DNA from: Streptomyces sp. NBC_00448
Lineage (GTDB): Bacteria; Actinomycetota; Actinomycetes; Streptomycetales; Streptomycetaceae
Reading direction: 5' to 3'
Length of the DNA stretch: 64,000 nt
Assembly: GCF_036014115.1 (NCBI RefSeq)
Contig: NZ_CP107913.1
Span: 2,297,001 to 2,361,000, forward strand
Positions 9,619 through 24,497 of the stretch are shown piece by piece. The first letter of the stretch is position 1, and every line of letters begins with the position of its first letter. Both the position numbers and the translations under genes were made by a program. Under the pieces are notes generated by a model. The model made no database searches, was not told the origin of the DNA, and worked only from the letters and a program-made list of their open reading frames with translations.

Positions 9619-11148
9619 TCAGGGGCGTCCCGTGACCCGTTGGGGAACCCCCGCGGGGTTGTCGTCGCGCAGTTCCGGCGGGAGGAGGGCCGGCGGGGTG
9701 TCCTGGTAGGCGACGGGCCGCAGCCATCGCTCGATCGCAGTGCCGCCCACGGAGGTCGACGTGGAGGTGGTGGCGGGGTAGGGCCCGCCGTGGTGCTGGG
9801 CGCCGGTGACGGCGACCCCGGTGGGCCAGCCGTTGACCAGCACCCGTCCGGCGAGCGCGCCGAGCCGGGTCAGGAGCGCGGCGGCGGGCCCGCCCGGGGT
9901 CACCGCCTCGTCCGCTCCGAGGTGCGCGGTCGCCGTGAGGTTCCCCGGCAACCGGTCGAGGATTGCGTCGAGTTGGTCCGCGTCGCCGTACCGTACGACC
10001 ACGGTGAGCGGCCCGAAGCACTCCTCCAGCAGCAGGTCGTACGCGCCGGGTTCGGCCAGTTCCGCGGCATCAGCCACGACGTAGCCGGGGCGTACCGCGA
10101 GGGGGTCCTCGGCGCTGCCGGCGGTGACGGGGGTGGCGACGGCGGGCAGGGCGGCGCGGGCGGCGGCGCCCTTGAGGAAGTTCTCGCGCATCCGGCCGTC
10201 GAGCAGCACCCCGGCGGCGGCGTCCTGCGCGGCGCCGGTGAGCGCGCCGACGAGACGGTCCCCGTCGGCGCCCGCCGGGGTGAGGACCAGCCCCGGCTTG
10301 GTGCAGAACTGCCCGCTGCCGAGGGTGAAGGAACCCGCCAGCCCGGTGCCGATCTGCTCGGCCCGCTCGGCGGCGGCGGCCGGGGTGACCACGACCGGGT
10401 TGAGACTGCCCAACTCGCCGTGGAACGGGATCGGCCGGGGCCGGGCGGCGGCCGCGTCGAACAGTGCCCGGCCGCCGGGAATCGACCCGGTGAAGCCGGC
10501 CGCGGCCACCAGCGGGTGCCGGACCAGTTCGACGCCGGCCTCGAAGCCGTGCAGCAGCACCACGGTGTCGGCGGGCAGGCCGACCGAGACCGCGGCCTCG
10601 CGCAGCAGCCCCGCGGTGAGCACGGAGGTGGCCGGGTGGTCCGGGTGCGCCTTGACCACGACCGGGCAGCCCGCGGCGAGCGCACTGGCGGTGTCGCCGC
10701 CGGGCACGGAGAAGGCGAGCGGGAAGTTGCTGGCCGCGTAGACCGCCACGACGCCGAGCGGGATCTTGTACCGGCGCAGGTCCGGCCGCGGGATGGGCTT
10801 CGCGTCCGGGTCGGGGTGGTCGATGATCACGTCCAGGAACGCGCCCTCGTCCACCACGTCGGCGAAGGACCGCAGTTGGAAGGCGGTGCGGGCCAGCTCT
10901 CCGGTGAGCCTGGGGGTGCCGAGCGCGGTCTCGGCGTCGGCGGCGGCCACCACCTGCTCGGCGTCCCGCTCCAGCAGCCCGGCTGCCGCCCGCAGCAGCC
11001 GGGACCGTACGCTACGGTCGGCGAGGGCGGGGAGCGCGGTGGCGGCGGCGCGCACGGCGGCGTCGACCTCGGCGGCCGTGGCCTCGACGGCGACCTGCTC
11101 GCGCTGCTTCCCGGTTCGGGGGTCCACGCTCCAGACTGGTACTGCCAC
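9619..11148 (-). CDS. alpha-ketoglutaric semialdehyde dehydrogenase (NADP-type ALDH)
   Basis: 509 aa cytoplasmic enzyme that would oxidise 2,5-dioxopentanoate to 2-oxoglutarate, the last step of oxidative uronate/aldarate (or pentose) breakdown. Aldehyde dehydrogenase landmarks: catalytic Cys in GSGQFCTKPG, general-base Glu in FHGELGSLNP, oxyanion Asn in ASNFPLAFSV. The latter context, and FHGELGSLNPVV, match the KGSADH branch rather than general ALDHs. Start GTG 11148 is chosen because GGAGG lies 8 nt upstream and MAVPVWSVDPRTG is the family N-terminus; a GTG at 11178 would add 10 residues. It is divergent from an IclR regulator. kdgD and udh, which complete the route, lie 9-11 kb away and share a promoter-region motif. 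Confidence 0.87.
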   Translation of the reverse strand: MAVPVWSVDPRTGKQREQVAVEATAAEVDAAVRAAATALPALADRSVRSRLLRAAAGLLERDAEQVVAAADAETALGTPRLTGELARTAFQLRSFADVVDEGAFLDVIIDHPDPDAKPIPRPDLRRYKIPLGVVAVYAASNFPLAFSVPGGDTASALAAGCPVVVKAHPDHPATSVLTAGLLREAAVSVGLPADTVVLLHGFEAGVELVRHPLVAAAGFTGSIPGGRALFDAAAARPRPIPFHGELGSLNPVVVTPAAAAERAEQIGTGLAGSFTLGSGQFCTKPGLVLTPAGADGDRLVGALTGAAQDAAAGVLLDGRMRENFLKGAAARAALPAVATPVTAGSAEDPLAVRPGYVVADAAELAEPGAYDLLLEECFGPLTVVVRYGDADQLDAILDRLPGNLTATAHLGADEAVTPGGPAAALLTRLGALAGRVLVNGWPTGVAVTGAQHHGGPYPATTSTSTSVGGTAIERWLRPVAYQDTPPALLPPELRDDNPAGVPQRVTGRP

Positions 11149-11211
11149 CGGAATAACCTCCACATTTCCATATTGCACGCGGTCGGTGCTCGTCGTCGTT
11201 CCGGTCTGTTC

Positions 11212-11241
11212 TCTATACTGAACAACGTCTTCACATGTGAA
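11212..11241. promoter_or_regulatory. candidate IclR operator/promoter between KGSADH and iclR genes
   Basis: Two elements lie side by side in the 147-nt divergent gap. At 11230-11241 is a perfect 12-nt palindrome, TTCACATGTGAA. At 11212-11223 is TCTATACTGAAC, which resembles TCTATATTCATGAAC at 21053-21067 in front of kdgD. IclR regulators usually bind palindromes in their own divergent promoter region; assignment to this IclR protein is inference. Confidence 0.5.
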
Positions 11242-11295: not shown

Positions 11296-12066
11296 ATGGC
11301 TGTTGCCGAGGGTGCCGGTTCCCAGGTCAAGTCCGCGGTCCGCACGGTGGAGCTGCTGGAGTTCTTCGCGGGCCGCCCCGGCATGCACAGCCTGGCCGCC
11401 GTGCAGGAGTCGGTCGGCTACCCCAAGTCCAGCCTGTACATGCTGCTGCGCACCCTGGTCGAGCTGGGCTGGATCGAGACCGACGCGACCGGCACGCGGT
11501 ACGGCATCGGCGTGCGCGCGCTGCTGGTCGGCACGTCCTACATCGACGGCGACGAGGTGGTGGCCGCCGCCCGGCCGACCCTGGACCGGCTCTCCGACGA
11601 GACCAGCGAGACCATCCACATGGCCCGGCTCGACGGCACCAACGTGGTCTACCTCGCCACCCGCCAGTCGCAGCACTACCTGCGGCCGTTCACCCGGGTC
11701 GGCCGCCGCCTGCCCGCGCACTCCACCTCCCTCGGCAAGGCGCTGCTGGCCACGTACACCGACGAGCAGGTGCGCAAGCTCCTTCCGGAGACGCTGGAAC
11801 CGCTCACCGAGCACACCCACACCGACCGCGAGAAGCTGATCGAGGAACTGGCCGTCATCCGCGAGCAGGGTTACGCCGTGGACCGCGAGGAGAACACGCT
11901 GGGGCTGCGCTGCTTCGGCATCGCGATCCCCTACCGGACCCCGGCCCGCGACGCGGTGAGCTGCTCGGTGCCGGTGGCCCGGCTCACCCCGGGACACGAG
12001 CAGATGATCAAGGACACCCTCTTCGACGCCCGCGACCGCCTCCTCCTGGCCACCCGCCCCCTCTGA
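11296..12066 (+). CDS. IclR-family transcriptional regulator
   Basis: 256 aa. An N-terminal winged helix (about 10-75; HSLAAVQESVGYPKSSLYMLLRTL is the HTH) is followed by an IclR effector-binding domain (about 85-255; ETIHMARLDGTNVVYLA and AHSTSLGKALLA are typical). GAGGGG precedes the ATG at 11296. It is divergent from the ketoglutarate-semialdehyde dehydrogenase, and the palindrome 11230-11241 lies in the shared gap, so it probably represses or activates that gene. It may also act on kdgD and udh, since a related motif occurs there. The ligand may be an aldarate or KDG-type acid; this is inference from neighbours. Confidence 0.9.
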   Translation: MAVAEGAGSQVKSAVRTVELLEFFAGRPGMHSLAAVQESVGYPKSSLYMLLRTLVELGWIETDATGTRYGIGVRALLVGTSYIDGDEVVAAARPTLDRLSDETSETIHMARLDGTNVVYLATRQSQHYLRPFTRVGRRLPAHSTSLGKALLATYTDEQVRKLLPETLEPLTEHTHTDREKLIEELAVIREQGYAVDREENTLGLRCFGIAIPYRTPARDAVSCSVPVARLTPGHEQMIKDTLFDARDRLLLATRPL

Positions 12067-18770: not shown

Positions 18771-20066
18771 CTACGGCCGCAGCGCCGCCCGTACCGCCAC
18801 GAGGTCCGCGTCGCTCGCCAGACCCGCGTGGTAGAGCCGCAGTTCGGTGGCGCCCAGTTCCGCGGCGTGCGCCGCGTCGGCGGCGAGGGTGCGGGGGCTG
18901 CCGCCCATGCCGGCCACGACCGTGAAGTTCGCGGCGAGCACGGTGTGTTCGCGGCGGTGCGCGGCGAGCGGCGCGAGGACCGCCTCGCGCGCGGCCGGCC
19001 CGCCGGTGCAGGGCAGTACCAGACCGTCGGCGTGGCCGAGGATGTGCGCGGGATCGACACCGGCGTTGGCCCCGCAGCGGTACGGCACCGGGTCGGCGTG
19101 CATCAGCACCTGGAAGCCGGGGCCGGCCGCCGCCCGGACCGCGGCGATCGCCTCGGCCTGGAGCGAACCGGCCGTGCGGGTACGCCAGTTCAACGTCAGC
19201 GCGGTGAACTCGGCACCCAGCAGCCGCTCGATACCGTCCGATCCGGCGTCCGTTCCGGTGCCGGTGGCGCCGCCCGCCCAGGCGGGTGCCAGCGCGGCGC
19301 GGACCGCGGCGGCGAGCCGGTCCGGATCGGCGCCGAGCCCGGCGTACCCTTCGCGGCAGTGCGGGCAGAAGCAGAGCGACATCAGGTACTGGGCCGCGTC
19401 GCCGAGCGGCACGCCGCCGATCTTGTCGTGGGCGTGCAGGTGCGCCAGGCCGTACCAGCCGAGGGATTCCAGCTCGGTGCCGCGGGCGCCGGGCCGGGGC
19501 GCGGCTTCGGCGGCCAGTTCCACCAGGTGGGCGCGGACGGCGGGTTGGGCGATGCACGGCGCCCACGGGTAGCGGTCGCCGTACGCGTTGACCACGCTGC
19601 TGTCCGGATGTTCGGCGCCCATACGGGAGTTGTGGGCGAGCACCACCCAGGTGTGCACGTCGAGACCCGCGGCCGCCAGCGCCGCCGCGGCCGTGCCGTA
19701 GGCGTCCTGGTCTCCGTCCGTCCAGGTGCCCGCGGGGTACGGGCGCAGGGCGTGCGACCGCCAGCGCTCGGCGTCGGGCGGGTAGAGCACGGCGGCGTGC
19801 TCGGCGGTGACGACACGGCGCCCGGGGTGGCGCGGGGTCAGGGCGCGGGTGGAGTGGTAGGCGGCGGCGAGGGTGACCTGGCGAACGCCGAGCGCGGCGA
19901 CCCGGTCGGCGGCGGCCGGGTCGCCGACGACGTCCCAGGGGTAGAGGAAGGCGGAGGTCTTCATGGTGGCGGCCGTGGCGGCGGGCGAACCGGCGGAGGG
20001 CTCGCCGGGGGCGGACGGGCCGGCGGGTACGGAGGGGCCCGCGGGGGGCGTGTCGGCGGCGGCCAT
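18771..20066 (-). CDS. uncharacterised TIM-barrel-like protein coupled to kdgD
   Basis: 431 aa as drawn; a 34-residue Pro/Ala/Gly-rich leader precedes MKTSAFLYPWDVVGDP (alternative ATG 19964). The start at 20066 follows the kdgD stop by one nt (TGACATG), so translation is coupled. Alternating strands and helices (LGVRQVTLAAAYHS, LDVHTWVVLAHNSRMG, GFQVLMHADPVPYR, DGLVLPCTGG, ATELRLYHAG) look like a TIM barrel of the glycoside-hydrolase-like kind. LCFCPHCREGY in the middle carries three Cys, as in some barrel families of unknown function. I do not recognise the family. No signal peptide, so cytoplasmic. Context suggests a hydrolase or lactone-opening step in uronate use, by inference only. Confidence 0.72.
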   Translation of the reverse strand: MAAADTPPAGPSVPAGPSAPGEPSAGSPAATAATMKTSAFLYPWDVVGDPAAADRVAALGVRQVTLAAAYHSTRALTPRHPGRRVVTAEHAAVLYPPDAERWRSHALRPYPAGTWTDGDQDAYGTAAAALAAAGLDVHTWVVLAHNSRMGAEHPDSSVVNAYGDRYPWAPCIAQPAVRAHLVELAAEAAPRPGARGTELESLGWYGLAHLHAHDKIGGVPLGDAAQYLMSLCFCPHCREGYAGLGADPDRLAAAVRAALAPAWAGGATGTGTDAGSDGIERLLGAEFTALTLNWRTRTAGSLQAEAIAAVRAAAGPGFQVLMHADPVPYRCGANAGVDPAHILGHADGLVLPCTGGPAAREAVLAPLAAHRREHTVLAANFTVVAGMGGSPRTLAADAAHAAELGATELRLYHAGLASDADLVAVRAALRP

Positions 20067-20067
20067 G

Positions 20068-21000
20068 TCAGTGCTCGCCGACCAGCGCCAGGCCGCGCTC
20101 GATGAGTTCGCCCAGTTCCTTGACGTGCGCCGGGGCGGGCTCGGACAGCGGCGGCCGTACCTCGCCGACGTCCAGCCCCCGCAGCCGTACGCCCGCCTTG
20201 ACCAGCGAGACCGCGTAACCCCGGCCCTGGTTGCGGAGGTTGACCAGCGGGCGGTAGAAGCCGTCGAGCAGCTTGCCGACGGTGGCGTCGTCGCCGGTGG
20301 TGAGCGCGCGGTGGAAGGCGAGCGCGATCTCGGGCGAGAAGGCGTACACCGCCGAGGAGTAGAGGGTCACGCCGATGCCGCGGTAGGCGAGGCCGGTGAG
20401 TTCGGCGGTGGGCAGGCCGTTGAAGTACAGGAAGTCGTGGCCGGGCAGTTCGGTGCGGACGGTGCTGATGATCCGCTGCATGAGGTCGAGGTCGCCGATC
20501 CCGTCCTTGAGGCCGATGATGTTCGGCACCCGGGCGAGCTCGACCACGGTCTCGGGGGTGAAGACGGCGTTGTCGCGCTGGTAGACGATGACGTCCAGGC
20601 CGGTGCCCGCGGCGAGCGCGGTGTAGTGGCGCAGCAGTCCCTCCTGGTCGGCCAGCACCAGGTAGGGCGGCATGGCGAGCAGGCCGTCGGCGCCGGCCCG
20701 TTCGGCGATGGCGGCGTACTGCAGGGCGAGCGCGGTGCCGTATCCGGCGCCGGCCACCACCGGCACCCGGCCGGCCACCTCCTCGACGGCCGCGGCCACG
20801 CAGGCGCCGAACTCCTCGGGGGCCAGCGCGTGGAACTCACCCGTGCCGCAGCAGACGAAGGCGGCCGCCGCTCCGGCCTCGACGCCCTGCCGCACATGGG
20901 CGCGGAAGGCGCCGAGGTCGAGCGAGCCGTCCGCGTCGAACGCCGTCACGGGAAAGAACAGCAGACCGTCAAGTCGCTCGGCGAGTGCGGGCGAGGTCAT
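20068..21000 (-). CDS. kdgD: 5-dehydro-4-deoxyglucarate dehydratase
   Basis: 310 aa, DHDPS/NAL superfamily. Converts 5-keto-4-deoxy-D-glucarate to 2,5-dioxopentanoate with loss of water and CO2. The Schiff-base Lys sits in NIIGLKDGIGDLD, the catalytic Tyr in VIVYQRDNAVF, and the substrate loop is CCGTGEFHAL. The N-terminus RLDGLLFFPVTAFDADGSLD is diagnostic of KdgD rather than DapA. ATG 21000 has AGGGGG upstream. The product is the substrate of the semialdehyde dehydrogenase at 9619-11148. Divergent from uronate dehydrogenase with a motif shared by both promoters. Confidence 0.92.
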   Translation of the reverse strand: MTSPALAERLDGLLFFPVTAFDADGSLDLGAFRAHVRQGVEAGAAAAFVCCGTGEFHALAPEEFGACVAAAVEEVAGRVPVVAGAGYGTALALQYAAIAERAGADGLLAMPPYLVLADQEGLLRHYTALAAGTGLDVIVYQRDNAVFTPETVVELARVPNIIGLKDGIGDLDLMQRIISTVRTELPGHDFLYFNGLPTAELTGLAYRGIGVTLYSSAVYAFSPEIALAFHRALTTGDDATVGKLLDGFYRPLVNLRNQGRGYAVSLVKAGVRLRGLDVGEVRPPLSEPAPAHVKELGELIERGLALVGEH

Positions 21001-21052
21001 CGGGGGTCCCCCTCGGAGCCGGTGGGCGTGATGTGCGCCCTCGTGAATCATG

Positions 21053-21067
21053 TCTATATTCATGAAC
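21053..21067 (-). promoter_or_regulatory. candidate kdgD promoter/operator motif
   Basis: On the minus strand, TTCATGAATATAGA (21066-21053) lies 53 nt ahead of the kdgD start. The same string with two changes occurs on the plus strand before udh (21167-21180). On the plus strand it reads TCTATATTCATGAAC, close to TCTATACTGAAC ahead of the semialdehyde dehydrogenase. Candidate shared regulator site or AT-rich -10 region. Confidence 0.45.
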
Positions 21068-21166
21068 GCTGCCACGCTAGGCGAGATTCCCGGCGCGGGT
21101 CAAGCGAGCGAGCAGTCCGCGAACGGCGCGTCGAACAACGCAAGACGTCTATGTATCTGAACTGCA

Positions 21167-21284: not shown

Positions 21285-22130
21285 ATGCCCGCTCCTCGTA
21301 CCGTCCTGCTCACCGGCGCCGCCGGCGGCCTGGGCACCCTGATGCGCGGCCTGCTGCCGTCATACGGCTACGACCTGCGGCTCTTCGACGTCCAGCCGAT
21401 CGAGCCGGTGCCGGGCGAGCCCGAGGGGCGCACGGCGATCACCGCCGACCTCGCCGACCGCGACGCGCTGCGCGCGGCCGCGCGCGGGGTGGACGCGGTG
21501 CTGCACCTGGCCGGCATCTCGCTGGAGTCCACCTTCGACAAGATCCTGGCGGCGAACATCCAGGGCACGCACAACCTCTACGAGGCGGTCCGCGAGGAAG
21601 GGCTCCGCACCGGGAGCGCGGCGCCCCGGGTCGTCTTCGCCTCCAGCAACCACGCGGTCGGCTTCACCCCGCGCCCGCAGGACGGCGACCCGCTGATCCC
21701 GGTCGACACGCCGCGCCGCCCCGACACCTTCTACGGGCTGTCCAAGTGCTTCGGGGAGGACCTGGCCCAGCTCTACGCCGACCTGCACGGCATCGACACG
21801 GTCTCGGTCCGGATCGGCTCCTGCTTCCCCGAACCGGCGAACGTACGGATGCTGTCGGTCTGGATGAGCCCCGCCGACGGCGCCCGGCTCTTCCACGCGG
21901 CGCTGAGCGCGGGCACCCCCGGGCACACCGTCGTCTACGGCTCCTCCGCCAACACCCGCCTGTGGTGGGACCTCGGGTCGGCGCGGGCGCTGGGCTACGA
22001 ACCGCAGGACGACTCCGAGGTGTTCGCCGCGCGACTCGTCGCCGAGCAGGGCGAGTTGGACCCGGACAACCCCGCGCAGGCGAACCTCGGCGGCGCCTTC
22101 TGCACGGACCCGCCGATCTGGCCGCACTGA
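21285..22130 (+). CDS. udh: uronate dehydrogenase (NAD-dependent SDR)
   Basis: 281 aa extended short-chain dehydrogenase that oxidises D-galacturonate or D-glucuronate to the aldarolactone. Cofactor motif TGAAGGLG (residues 10-17), VFASSNHAVGF supplying the catalytic Ser, and YGLSKCFGE with Tyr and Lys. VRIGSCFPEPANVRMLSVWMS and the C-terminal LGGAFCTDPPIW closely resemble, from memory, the characterised Agrobacterium enzyme (VRIGSCTPEPNNYRMLSTW). AGGAGG precedes the ATG. Divergent from kdgD; together with the distant semialdehyde dehydrogenase it covers three of the steps from uronate to 2-oxoglutarate. Lactone opening and aldarate dehydratase are not seen in the window. Confidence 0.88.
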   Translation: MPAPRTVLLTGAAGGLGTLMRGLLPSYGYDLRLFDVQPIEPVPGEPEGRTAITADLADRDALRAAARGVDAVLHLAGISLESTFDKILAANIQGTHNLYEAVREEGLRTGSAAPRVVFASSNHAVGFTPRPQDGDPLIPVDTPRRPDTFYGLSKCFGEDLAQLYADLHGIDTVSVRIGSCFPEPANVRMLSVWMSPADGARLFHAALSAGTPGHTVVYGSSANTRLWWDLGSARALGYEPQDDSEVFAARLVAEQGELDPDNPAQANLGGAFCTDPPIWPH

Positions 22131-23213: not shown

Positions 23214-24497
23214 ATGACCGCAATGACGCCTGGCTCGAATGTGCCGCTCTCCGTACCCCGAGTGGTGGTGGACGTCTCCGCACCCGTGCGGCTCGACGTC
23301 TCGGGTCTGCTCCTGACCGCTGACGGCAAGGTGCGCTCGGACGACGACTTCGTCTTCTACAACCAGCCCGAGGGCCCCGGGGTGACCCACCACTCGGGCG
23401 GCCGCTCCGCGCCCGACTCGATCGAGGTCGACACCGCGGCGGTGCCCGCCGAGATCGACAAGATCGTGGTGACCGCCAGCATCGACGGCGGCGGGGTCTT
23501 CGCCGGCACCACCCCGACCGCGACCGTCCGCGGCAGCGACGGCTCCGTGGTCGCCACGTTCGAGCCGTCCGGGCTCGGCCCGGAGACAGCGCTGGTCGTC
23601 GTCGAGGTCTACCGGCGCGGCGGCGCCTGGAAGGTCCGCGCGGTGGGCCAGGGGTACGCGAACGGACTGGCCGGGATCGCCACCGACTTCGGGGTGAGCG
23701 TCGAGGAGCCCGCGGCCCCGGCCGCGCAGCCGGTCGCACCTCCCACTCCCGCGGCTCCGCCCGCACCGCCTGCGCCCCCGGCGGCGCCCTTCGGCGCGCC
23801 CCCTTCCGGCCCGCCCGCCGCGCATCTGCCGCCGCCGCCCGCGGGCGCGCCCGCCGCGCAGTTCCCGCCGCCGCCCGCTGCGACGCCGCCTGCTCCCCCG
23901 GCGGCCGCTCCGGGCGCCGGCAAGATCAGCCTCGACAAGGGCCGGGTGAACCTGCAGAAGAACCAGTCGGTCTCGCTGGTCAAGGCGGGCCGCCCGGTGC
24001 TGTCGACGGTCAGGATGGGGCTGGGCTGGGAGCCCGCGTTCGGCGGCCGGGCCATCGACCTGGACGCCTCGGTCATCGTCTACGGGCCGCAGCGCGAGCA
24101 CCTCGCCACCTGCTACTTCGGCAAGTTGAGCGTCCTGGGCGGCGCGGTCCAGCACGCCGGGGACAACCTGACCGGCGCCGGCTCCGGTGACGACGAGGTC
24201 ATCTCCATCAACCTCGGCGCGCTCCCGGCGAACGCCACCGGCCTGGTCTTCACCGTCAACTCCTACAGCGGGCAGAAGTTCAACAAGGTCGCGAAGGCGT
24301 ACTGCCGGCTCTTCGACGCCGTCACCGGCGAGGAGATGGTGCGCTTCGACCTCACCCACGGGGAGGCGCGGCGCGGGGTGCTGATGGCCAAGATGGTCAA
24401 GCAGAACTCCGGCGAGTGGGAGATGACGGCGCTCGGCACCTTCGCGGACGGGCGCACCGCGAAGGCGATGGTCGAGCCGGGCGCGGCCGCGCTCTAG
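23214..24497 (+). CDS. TerD-family protein with two Ter domains and a Pro/Ala linker
   Basis: 427 aa. First Ter-like domain at about 10-165 (VPRVVVDVSAPVRLDVSGL, DDDFVFYNQPEGPGVTH, IDKIVVTASIDGGG). A proline/alanine linker follows (about 170-235, with PPPPAGAPAAQFPPP-type repeats). The second Ter domain is at about 238-425 (KISLDKGRVNLQKNQSVSLVK, IDLDASVIVYGPQREHLATCYFGKL, DDEVISINLGALP). The FVFYNQP and GDDE/ISINLG motifs are diagnostic of the TerD/TerZ group. Cytoplasmic; likely binds calcium and partners other Ter proteins at the membrane. It ends 88 nt before a strong hairpin. Confidence 0.87.
   Translation: MTAMTPGSNVPLSVPRVVVDVSAPVRLDVSGLLLTADGKVRSDDDFVFYNQPEGPGVTHHSGGRSAPDSIEVDTAAVPAEIDKIVVTASIDGGGVFAGTTPTATVRGSDGSVVATFEPSGLGPETALVVVEVYRRGGAWKVRAVGQGYANGLAGIATDFGVSVEEPAAPAAQPVAPPTPAAPPAPPAPPAAPFGAPPSGPPAAHLPPPPAGAPAAQFPPPPAATPPAPPAAAPGAGKISLDKGRVNLQKNQSVSLVKAGRPVLSTVRMGLGWEPAFGGRAIDLDASVIVYGPQREHLATCYFGKLSVLGGAVQHAGDNLTGAGSGDDEVISINLGALPANATGLVFTVNSYSGQKFNKVAKAYCRLFDAVTGEEMVRFDLTHGEARRGVLMAKMVKQNSGEWEMTALGTFADGRTAKAMVEPGAAAL

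Follow-up and report, generated by a model that had tools for sequence, protein, structure and literature searches.

The question raised by this locus is which reaction is carried out by protein X, the product of an ORF situated directly behind kdgD and near a divergent udh in a 64,000 nt stretch of the genome of Streptomyces sp. NBC_00448 (the whole stretch analysed, from here on the window). In the oxidative uronate pathway the enzymes would act in the order Udh, giving an aldarolactone/aldarate, a dehydratase, KdgD and an aldehyde dehydrogenase. X is tied to this defined pathway by gene order and co-occurrence, which makes its chemistry directly testable.

Table 1. Features of the window around protein X (residues numbered from the conserved start codon).
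Feature	Position	Strand	Remarks
Aldehyde dehydrogenase	9622..11166	-	tblastn 91% to cluster 14; Aldedh on a relative
Operator-like GTTC-N8-GAAC site, between IclR and aldehyde dehydrogenase	11208..11223		
IclR-family regulator	11296..12063	+	tblastn 99% to cluster 12; IclR_C on a relative
Protein X ORF, GH-like TIM barrel	18771..20066	-	431 aa
X conserved core, 397 aa from Met35	18771..19964	-	part modelled; start conserved
C198-F-C200-P-H-C203, rest of proposed zinc site	19356..19373	-	GH42 spacing
H179 codon, loop after strand 4	19428..19430	-	invariant in A1, A2, A4
E166 codon, end of strand 4	19467..19469	-	sole acidic residue invariant across A1-A5
C137 codon, first ligand of proposed zinc site	19554..19556	-	invariant in A1, A2, A4
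H111 codon, after strand 3	19632..19634	-	invariant in A1, A2, A4
H37 codon, after strand 2	19854..19856	-	invariant in A1, A2, A4
D11 codon, after strand 1	19932..19934	-	34/34 in A1, 17/19 in A2, 18/18 in A4
X N-terminal extension, Ala/Pro-rich, 34 aa, kdgD-coupled ATG	19965..20066	-	lineage-specific
kdgD, 5-dehydro-4-deoxyglucarate dehydratase	20068..21000	-	NF002958 433.5 bits, cut-off 278
Operator-like site upstream of kdgD-X	21052..21067		
Operator-like site upstream of udh	21147..21162		
udh, uronate dehydrogenase (SDR), divergent from kdgD-X	21285..22130	+	3rft E 4.8e-63

The gene of protein X and its coupling to kdgD

The ORF starts with an ATG at 20066, separated by one nucleotide (C) from the kdgD stop codon (TGA, 20068-20070), just as the initial annotation had described it. 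When 152 distinct homologous loci were compared, the position of Met35 (19964) was the start codon in 123 of them, and many of 68 loci had no alternative in-frame start within 150 nt upstream of that position. The TGA-C-ATG junction also occurs in sister species, where it either forms the conserved start or precedes an extension (in locus L002 the junction is kept and the extension is 18 aa long). This recurrence makes the +1 ATG probably genuine, and from the conserved start at Met35 together with the junctions of the sister species residues 1–34 look like an extension confined to the lineage. The ORF is real and under purifying selection, with a dN/dS of 0.17 to 0.33 for the core against four sister species.

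As the GC3 gene caller missed X at some loci, linkage was counted by tblastn. This revealed kdgD as the immediate upstream neighbour of X, in the same orientation, at 120 of the 152 loci, with the start of X overlapping the kdgD stop by 4 nt in 80 loci and a spacing of +1 in eight, a coupling beyond what chance would give, and a divergent udh within 3.5 kb of X in 121 loci, all counts leaning toward close relatives since the loci were drawn largely from best-match lists. The pairing with kdgD and udh, for which a neighbourhood analysis had been suggested, is thus frequent.

Of 182 genomes sampled from the family to which the window belongs, 140 have X; in the phylum, 12 of 296 sampled genomes have a match at E≤1e-5, seven of these 12 again in the same family. 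The best 80 of the 551 loci in genome contigs are all from Streptomyces or Actinacidiphila. A tblastn search of a plasmid collection gave relatives in 150 records, of which 112 are from Rhizobium and the remainder include haloarchaea, Aureimonas and Nonomuraea; Alicyclobacillus was also seen. About half of the query is aligned in these plasmid relatives, at roughly 30–45% identity, and their annotation is mostly hypothetical among the matches listed, while nine distant homologues show a full-length identity of 23–30%. X is thus common in the window's family, with more distant relatives on rhizobial and haloarchaeal plasmids, yet it has no named family or assigned reaction.

Fold and sequence relatives

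No Pfam or NCBIfam family matched X at E≤10, and the Pfam profiles Glyco_hydro_42, MR_MLE and SGL (PF08450, which we take to be the family of UxuL) gave no match at the same threshold. A single-sequence search of the PDB returned one chance match only (E 0.38), and among open-licence papers, where a gene name is lacking as a search handle, no report was recognised as dealing with protein X. An AlphaFold2 model built from 34 sequences predicts a TIM barrel (pLDDT 91.0, pTM 0.92) with barrel strands at residues 2–7, 29–36, 102–108, 160–166, 285–291, 314–318, 342–348 and 374–378 and two extra short strands at 123–125 and 131–136. The barrel-like strand pattern noticed from the sequence at the outset, and the statement that it fitted no known family, are both borne out.

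The fold search that had been proposed together with structure prediction places glycan-acting proteins nearest to this confidently predicted barrel. With Foldseek, PgaB (7e-9) and A4 beta-galactosidase (1e-8) top the matches listed, and among the 50 listed there is one clear non-glycan protein, Old Yellow Enzyme (E 4.1e-4). With VIA-align all 50 matches listed are glycan-acting proteins, including Cwp19 (Z 24.3), alpha-L-fucosidase 6tvk (Z 24.2), PgaB chains (Z 21.0–23.9) and the GH42 structures 5xb7 (Z 22.7, 299 aligned, rmsd 3.1) and 1kwg (Z 20.9, 300 aligned, rmsd 3.2). A glycosidase-like barrel fold is therefore a well supported prediction.

At the sequence level, profiles of the wider X family gave Cwp19 as the top PDB match (E 0.0016 to 0.011), a marginal result with chance-like matches close behind (E 0.021 and 0.063), and a profile of the close relatives alone gave no PDB match. 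In the profile alignment E166 of X lies over an Asp in the D-D-Y segment of Cwp19. When eight distant homologues were compared with Pfam, GHL10 was listed for five at scores under its cut-off (E 7.9e-5 to 0.14), DUF4015 for one and no family for the other two, nor was any family listed for two relatives from the order in the same scan. The best distant homologue reaches 22.3 bits against the GHL10 (PF02638) cut-off of 27.9, and X itself has no match to it.

Conserved residues and a putative zinc site

Conservation was followed in alignments of 34 close X sequences (A1) and of 19 and 18 sequences (A2 and A4). Residues H37, W106, H111, C137, E166, H179, C198, C200, C203 and Y378 are invariant in all three, and H289, R376 and H379 show no variation among the 34 close sequences but fall to 10 of 19 in A2. 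The residue before E166 is Leu or Phe in A1 instead of Asn. Across positions 343–355, which cover strand 7 and its immediate continuation, Asp and Glu are absent from all 34 sequences, and X is for this reason no standard retaining enzyme of the GH42 kind. From its position and conservation E166 is a candidate catalytic acid, and D11, by analogy with GH156, a candidate general base.

The FCPHC segment, located at 19370-19356 on the reverse strand, had been singled out in the initial annotation as fitting no known family. The lack of a family match for X stands, but the segment itself matches the cysteine zinc-site spacing of GH42. In Gal42, according to the available part of the report, this site consists of Cys153, Cys155 and Cys158 as C-x-C-x2-C together with one Cys upstream, and it is not universal among GH42 enzymes (PMC8573354). 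The four cysteines of X probably form a structural zinc site as well, judging from this spacing.

Pathway genes and co-occurrence

When compared with the stricter model TIGR03249 (KdgD), kdgD scores 331 bits, below the cut-off of 374. The match of udh in Table 1, 3rft, is a solved uronate dehydrogenase, and its best NCBIfam match is Azf with 137 of 400 bits. No NCBIfam match of the aldehyde dehydrogenase comes near its cut-off (2,5-dioxovalerate dehydrogenase, for example, gives 84.5 of 750 bits), and its proposed substrate, 2-ketoglutarate semialdehyde, is taken from the gene context. Gene calling over the 9–36 kb part of the window showed no dehydratase, and for galactarate dehydratase (TIGR03248) the genome gave just two adjoining pieces below cut-off. 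Outside the window the genome has two glucarate-dehydratase-like genes, whose scores of 255 and 253 bits fall short of the strict cut-off (828.7). The solved 'probable glucarate dehydratase' 3vdg is matched by one of the two (E 6e-169), and this gene belongs to a second operon that lacks X and in which it is joined by a GntR-type regulator gene, udh2 and kdgD2, the last two being 47–50% identical to udh and kdgD of the window. This second operon (L193, G000:C1:1704672-1719907) is compact and situated ~0.6 Mb from the window.

Among 197 genomes of the order, 154 with X and 43 without, udh was found in 151 against 12 (Fisher p 5e-23), kdgD in 141 against 3 (p 8e-27) and a glucarate-dehydratase-like gene of the enolase superfamily in 124 against 4 (p 6e-18), with kdgD and the dehydratase counted at E<1e-100 and shared ancestry ignored in all p values. 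The tie of X to the oxidative uronate genes is well supported. The dehydratase gene is usually unlinked to X and a close match is absent in 30 of the 154 genomes, but all 10 genomes sampled from genus g5, which belongs to a second family, have X directly downstream of the dehydratase at one locus or more (13 full pairs and one with X in pieces). Here kdgD precedes the pair at three loci (G038, G046, G049) and udh follows it at one (L065). The initial annotation had named the dehydratase step as one that X might supply; this does not hold up well, since a dehydratase gene usually coexists with X and in g5 adjoins it, and a dehydratase role was judged unlikely.

Thirteen X-positive genomes have no close kdgD orthologue. 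X loci were obtained from nine of them, eight being divergent beside udh and the ninth stopping at a contig edge, and the other four genomes hold partial or weak X matches only. Of the eight, G072, G109, G168 and G201 have a more distant kdgD-like gene at another place in the genome, with best E values of 1e-83 to 1e-90, and G174, G179, G208 and G211 have no dehydratase at E≤1e-60. A gene of a cluster called IlvD/EDD (a name taken from one member) is located downstream of X in six of the eight, three of the four dehydratase-less genomes being among them, and it is possible that IlvD/EDD and DHDPS-like genes replace the lower pathway there. At loci L183, L184, L187, L188, L190 and L191 the IlvD/EDD-cluster gene, a DHDPS-like match and a GntR-type regulator are all found downstream of X.

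In X-free genomes with a strong udh, inspection by eye of 9 of 12 udh loci and two extra udh copies revealed no evident replacement lactonase or glycosidase (the udh loci of G149 and G219 were also viewed and G158 was left out), and tblastn of the fetched stretches gave no remnants of X beside kdgD in G129, G149 and G219.

Operator-like sites

The pattern GTTC-N8-RRAC (or its reverse form) is present in 108 of 115 unique udh-kdgD spacers (block-shuffle mean 2.5) and in all 13 aldehyde dehydrogenase/IclR spacers (block-shuffle mean 0.2), a recurrence that is support rather than proof, as the pattern was derived from the same spacers and these share ancestry. The strict form GTTC-N8-GAAC occurs in none of the 115 udh-kdgD spacers and in 11 of the 13 aldehyde dehydrogenase spacers, while the GTTCAKRNAYATRGAC form occurs in 111 of 115 and none of 13; because these stricter forms differ, a single operator shared by both kinds of spacer is not established. 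When the whole genome was scanned with a looser pattern, 50 matches were obtained, compared with 26 for the reversed control. ATA stands between the half-sites in just three of these matches, all of them in the window (11208, 21052 and 21147), and two others, outside the window, are equally A/T-rich. With all three ATA-type sites in the window, X may belong to a small IclR regulon together with udh, kdgD and the aldehyde dehydrogenase, and the three sites may be bound by the IclR-family regulator of Table 1.

Genomic contexts of distant homologues

Eight annotated haloarchaeal loci with an X homologue were analysed: five contain an enolase-superfamily gene together with an SDR, three contain muropeptide genes (DUF1343, AnmK or NagZ), one has both sets, and a creatininase-family gene is present in seven. 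On three haloarchaeal plasmids (L163, L169 and L200) an anhydro-MurNAc kinase and DUF1343 accompany a distant X homologue, and two of these also carry NagZ and GH18; archaea are not expected to possess peptidoglycan. Two Rhizobium copies and the Aureimonas copy are found with sugar-type ABC transporters, an amidohydrolase and an alanine-racemase gene. Some distant homologues adjoin amidohydrolase and SIS genes, and a phosphotriesterase-related gene lies near the homologue of Alicyclobacillus.

In 86 gene-called loci (70 of the 86 being listed) a transporter-type binding protein is encoded at most three genes downstream of udh in 39 cases, mostly across gaps of at least 200 nt, a linkage too weak to be used as proof that X is a glycosidase. 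The ORF at 23214-24497 of the window belongs to a family (cluster 4) that directly follows udh at 18 of the 86 loci; it is presumably TerD-like, its NCBIfam match reaches only 35 bits, and it has no obvious tie to uronate.

Possible functions of protein X

Uronoside hydrolysis and lactone opening, the two main candidates, had both been named in the initial annotation, whose interpretation is supported in part. The explanation put forward here, tentatively and with somewhat less than even confidence, is that X is an intracellular uronoside hydrolase situated at the entry to the oxidative uronate pathway. The reaction, substrate, location and residue roles that we infer are the following: X would hydrolyse an imported uronoside to glucuronate or galacturonate for Udh, with E166 at the end of strand 4 as proton donor and activation of water by D11/H111 or H179; the carboxylate may be bound by H289, R376 and H379, which are mostly exchanged in distant relatives; and X would be cytoplasmic, no signal peptide being seen in its sequence. 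Glycoside hydrolysis is favoured by the fold and by the glycan contexts of some distant homologues, as muropeptide, amidohydrolase and SIS neighbours fit glycan-cutting enzymes. Against it count the missing conserved acidic residue on strand 7, where GH42 has its nucleophile, the marginal PDB sequence matches of the X family, the sparse linkage to transporter genes, the two of eight distant homologues with no GHL family match at all, and the second udh-kdgD-dehydratase operon of the same genome, which has no X. The position of X beside the dehydratase rather than udh in g5 would suit a lactonase at least equally. Such an aldarolactonase would take the 1,5-lactone (glucaro- or galactaro-) that Udh forms and open it, giving free aldarate for the glucarate-dehydratase-like enzyme; this is the main rival, though a rather unlikely reading. 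It is favoured by the absent strand-7 nucleophile, which poses no problem here, and by lactone opening being the pathway step without an assignable gene, the dehydratase being found in trans. X also tracks udh where a close kdgD orthologue is lacking, directly follows the dehydratase in g5, and in five of the eight haloarchaeal loci has the SDR and enolase-superfamily neighbours of a dehydrogenase-lactonase-dehydratase pattern. However, we know of no lactonase with the fold of X, the operon without X speaks against this role too, no lactone is obvious for the homologues situated in muropeptide clusters, and the Alicyclobacillus homologue has a phosphotriesterase-related gene nearby. The genome moreover holds four other SGL-type (gluconolactonase-family) genes over cut-off, all outside the window and with putative roles. 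The step also has known enzymes in UxuL/UxuF, Gli and Gci, and X has no Pfam family; conversion of the 1,5- to the 1,4-lactone seemed spontaneous in the available part of the pathway review (PMC6353982). That X, as the actinobacterial aldarolactonase of the pathway, is the first lactone opener on a glycosidase-type barrel, with haloarchaea and rhizobia using the family for other sugar lactones, is unlikely.

An isomerase, epimerase or other non-hydrolytic uronate enzyme, with H37, H111, H179 and E166 perhaps as metal ligands, is quite improbable: the three invariant His, the invariant Glu and the tie to udh would agree with it, but neither Pfam nor NCBIfam gives X a match to a family of isomerases or epimerases. 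More improbable still is a role of X as the missing aldarate dehydratase or as a Gci-like lactone cycloisomerase, by which it would on its own complete a local set of Udh, X, KdgD and aldehyde dehydrogenase. The absence of a dehydratase from the genes called around this set, the dehydratase that the second operon holds where the first holds X, and the 30 X-positive genomes with no close dehydratase match would speak for it, but co-occurrence with the dehydratase, adjacency to it throughout the sampled g5 genomes, the lack of an enolase-superfamily or IlvD/EDD match and the glycan-acting proteins filling the VIA-align matches listed all argue against it. Either main answer would be useful: a uronoside hydrolase would found a new family of intracellular uronosidases whose catalytic set is altered, and an aldarolactonase would be a new kind of lactonase in the catabolism of sugar acids.

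Comparison with known systems

The Udh of Streptomyces viridochromogenes has been characterised biochemically (PMC4476818), and UxuL/UxuF, Gli and Gci are described as enzymes of the aldarolactone step (PMC6353982); X is not mentioned in the available parts of these two sources. In metabolic position X is possibly comparable with UxuL/UxuF, Gli and Gci but differs in having no Pfam or NCBIfam family. GH156, in the accessible text an inverting sialidase that acts on an acidic sugar via Asp14 and His134 (PMC6811678), may have these residues at places comparable to D11 and H111 of X. As a relative of X, GH156 was listed by one profile at E 0.97 and by none of three others, and its absence among the 50 matches listed for X in both Foldseek and VIA-align does not speak against it.

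Similar in fold are the 6tvk alpha-L-fucosidase and PgaB, which we take to be families GH151 and GH153 and which share 12–15% sequence identity with X. To GHL10 and Cwp19, a lytic transglycosylase according to the portion available (PMC6016235), X is similar in its TIM barrel (Z 24.3), in the PDB match (E 0.0016) and in the acidic residue aligned with E166, but it has no apparent signal peptide, has E-S in place of D-D and contains the Cys4 site. With GH42 it has in common the barrel, the spacing of one Cys plus C-x-C-x2-C and the Glu ending strand 4, but this Glu is in no NE motif in the close sequences, and X lacks the strand-7 nucleophile and consists of the 397-aa core only. Having no family assignment, a predicted TIM barrel and frequent pairing with kdgD and udh, X remains the good candidate for an undescribed enzyme that it was first taken for, and it is an undescribed family within the known superfamily of glycosidase-like TIM barrels that includes GHL10, GH42, GH151 and GH153.
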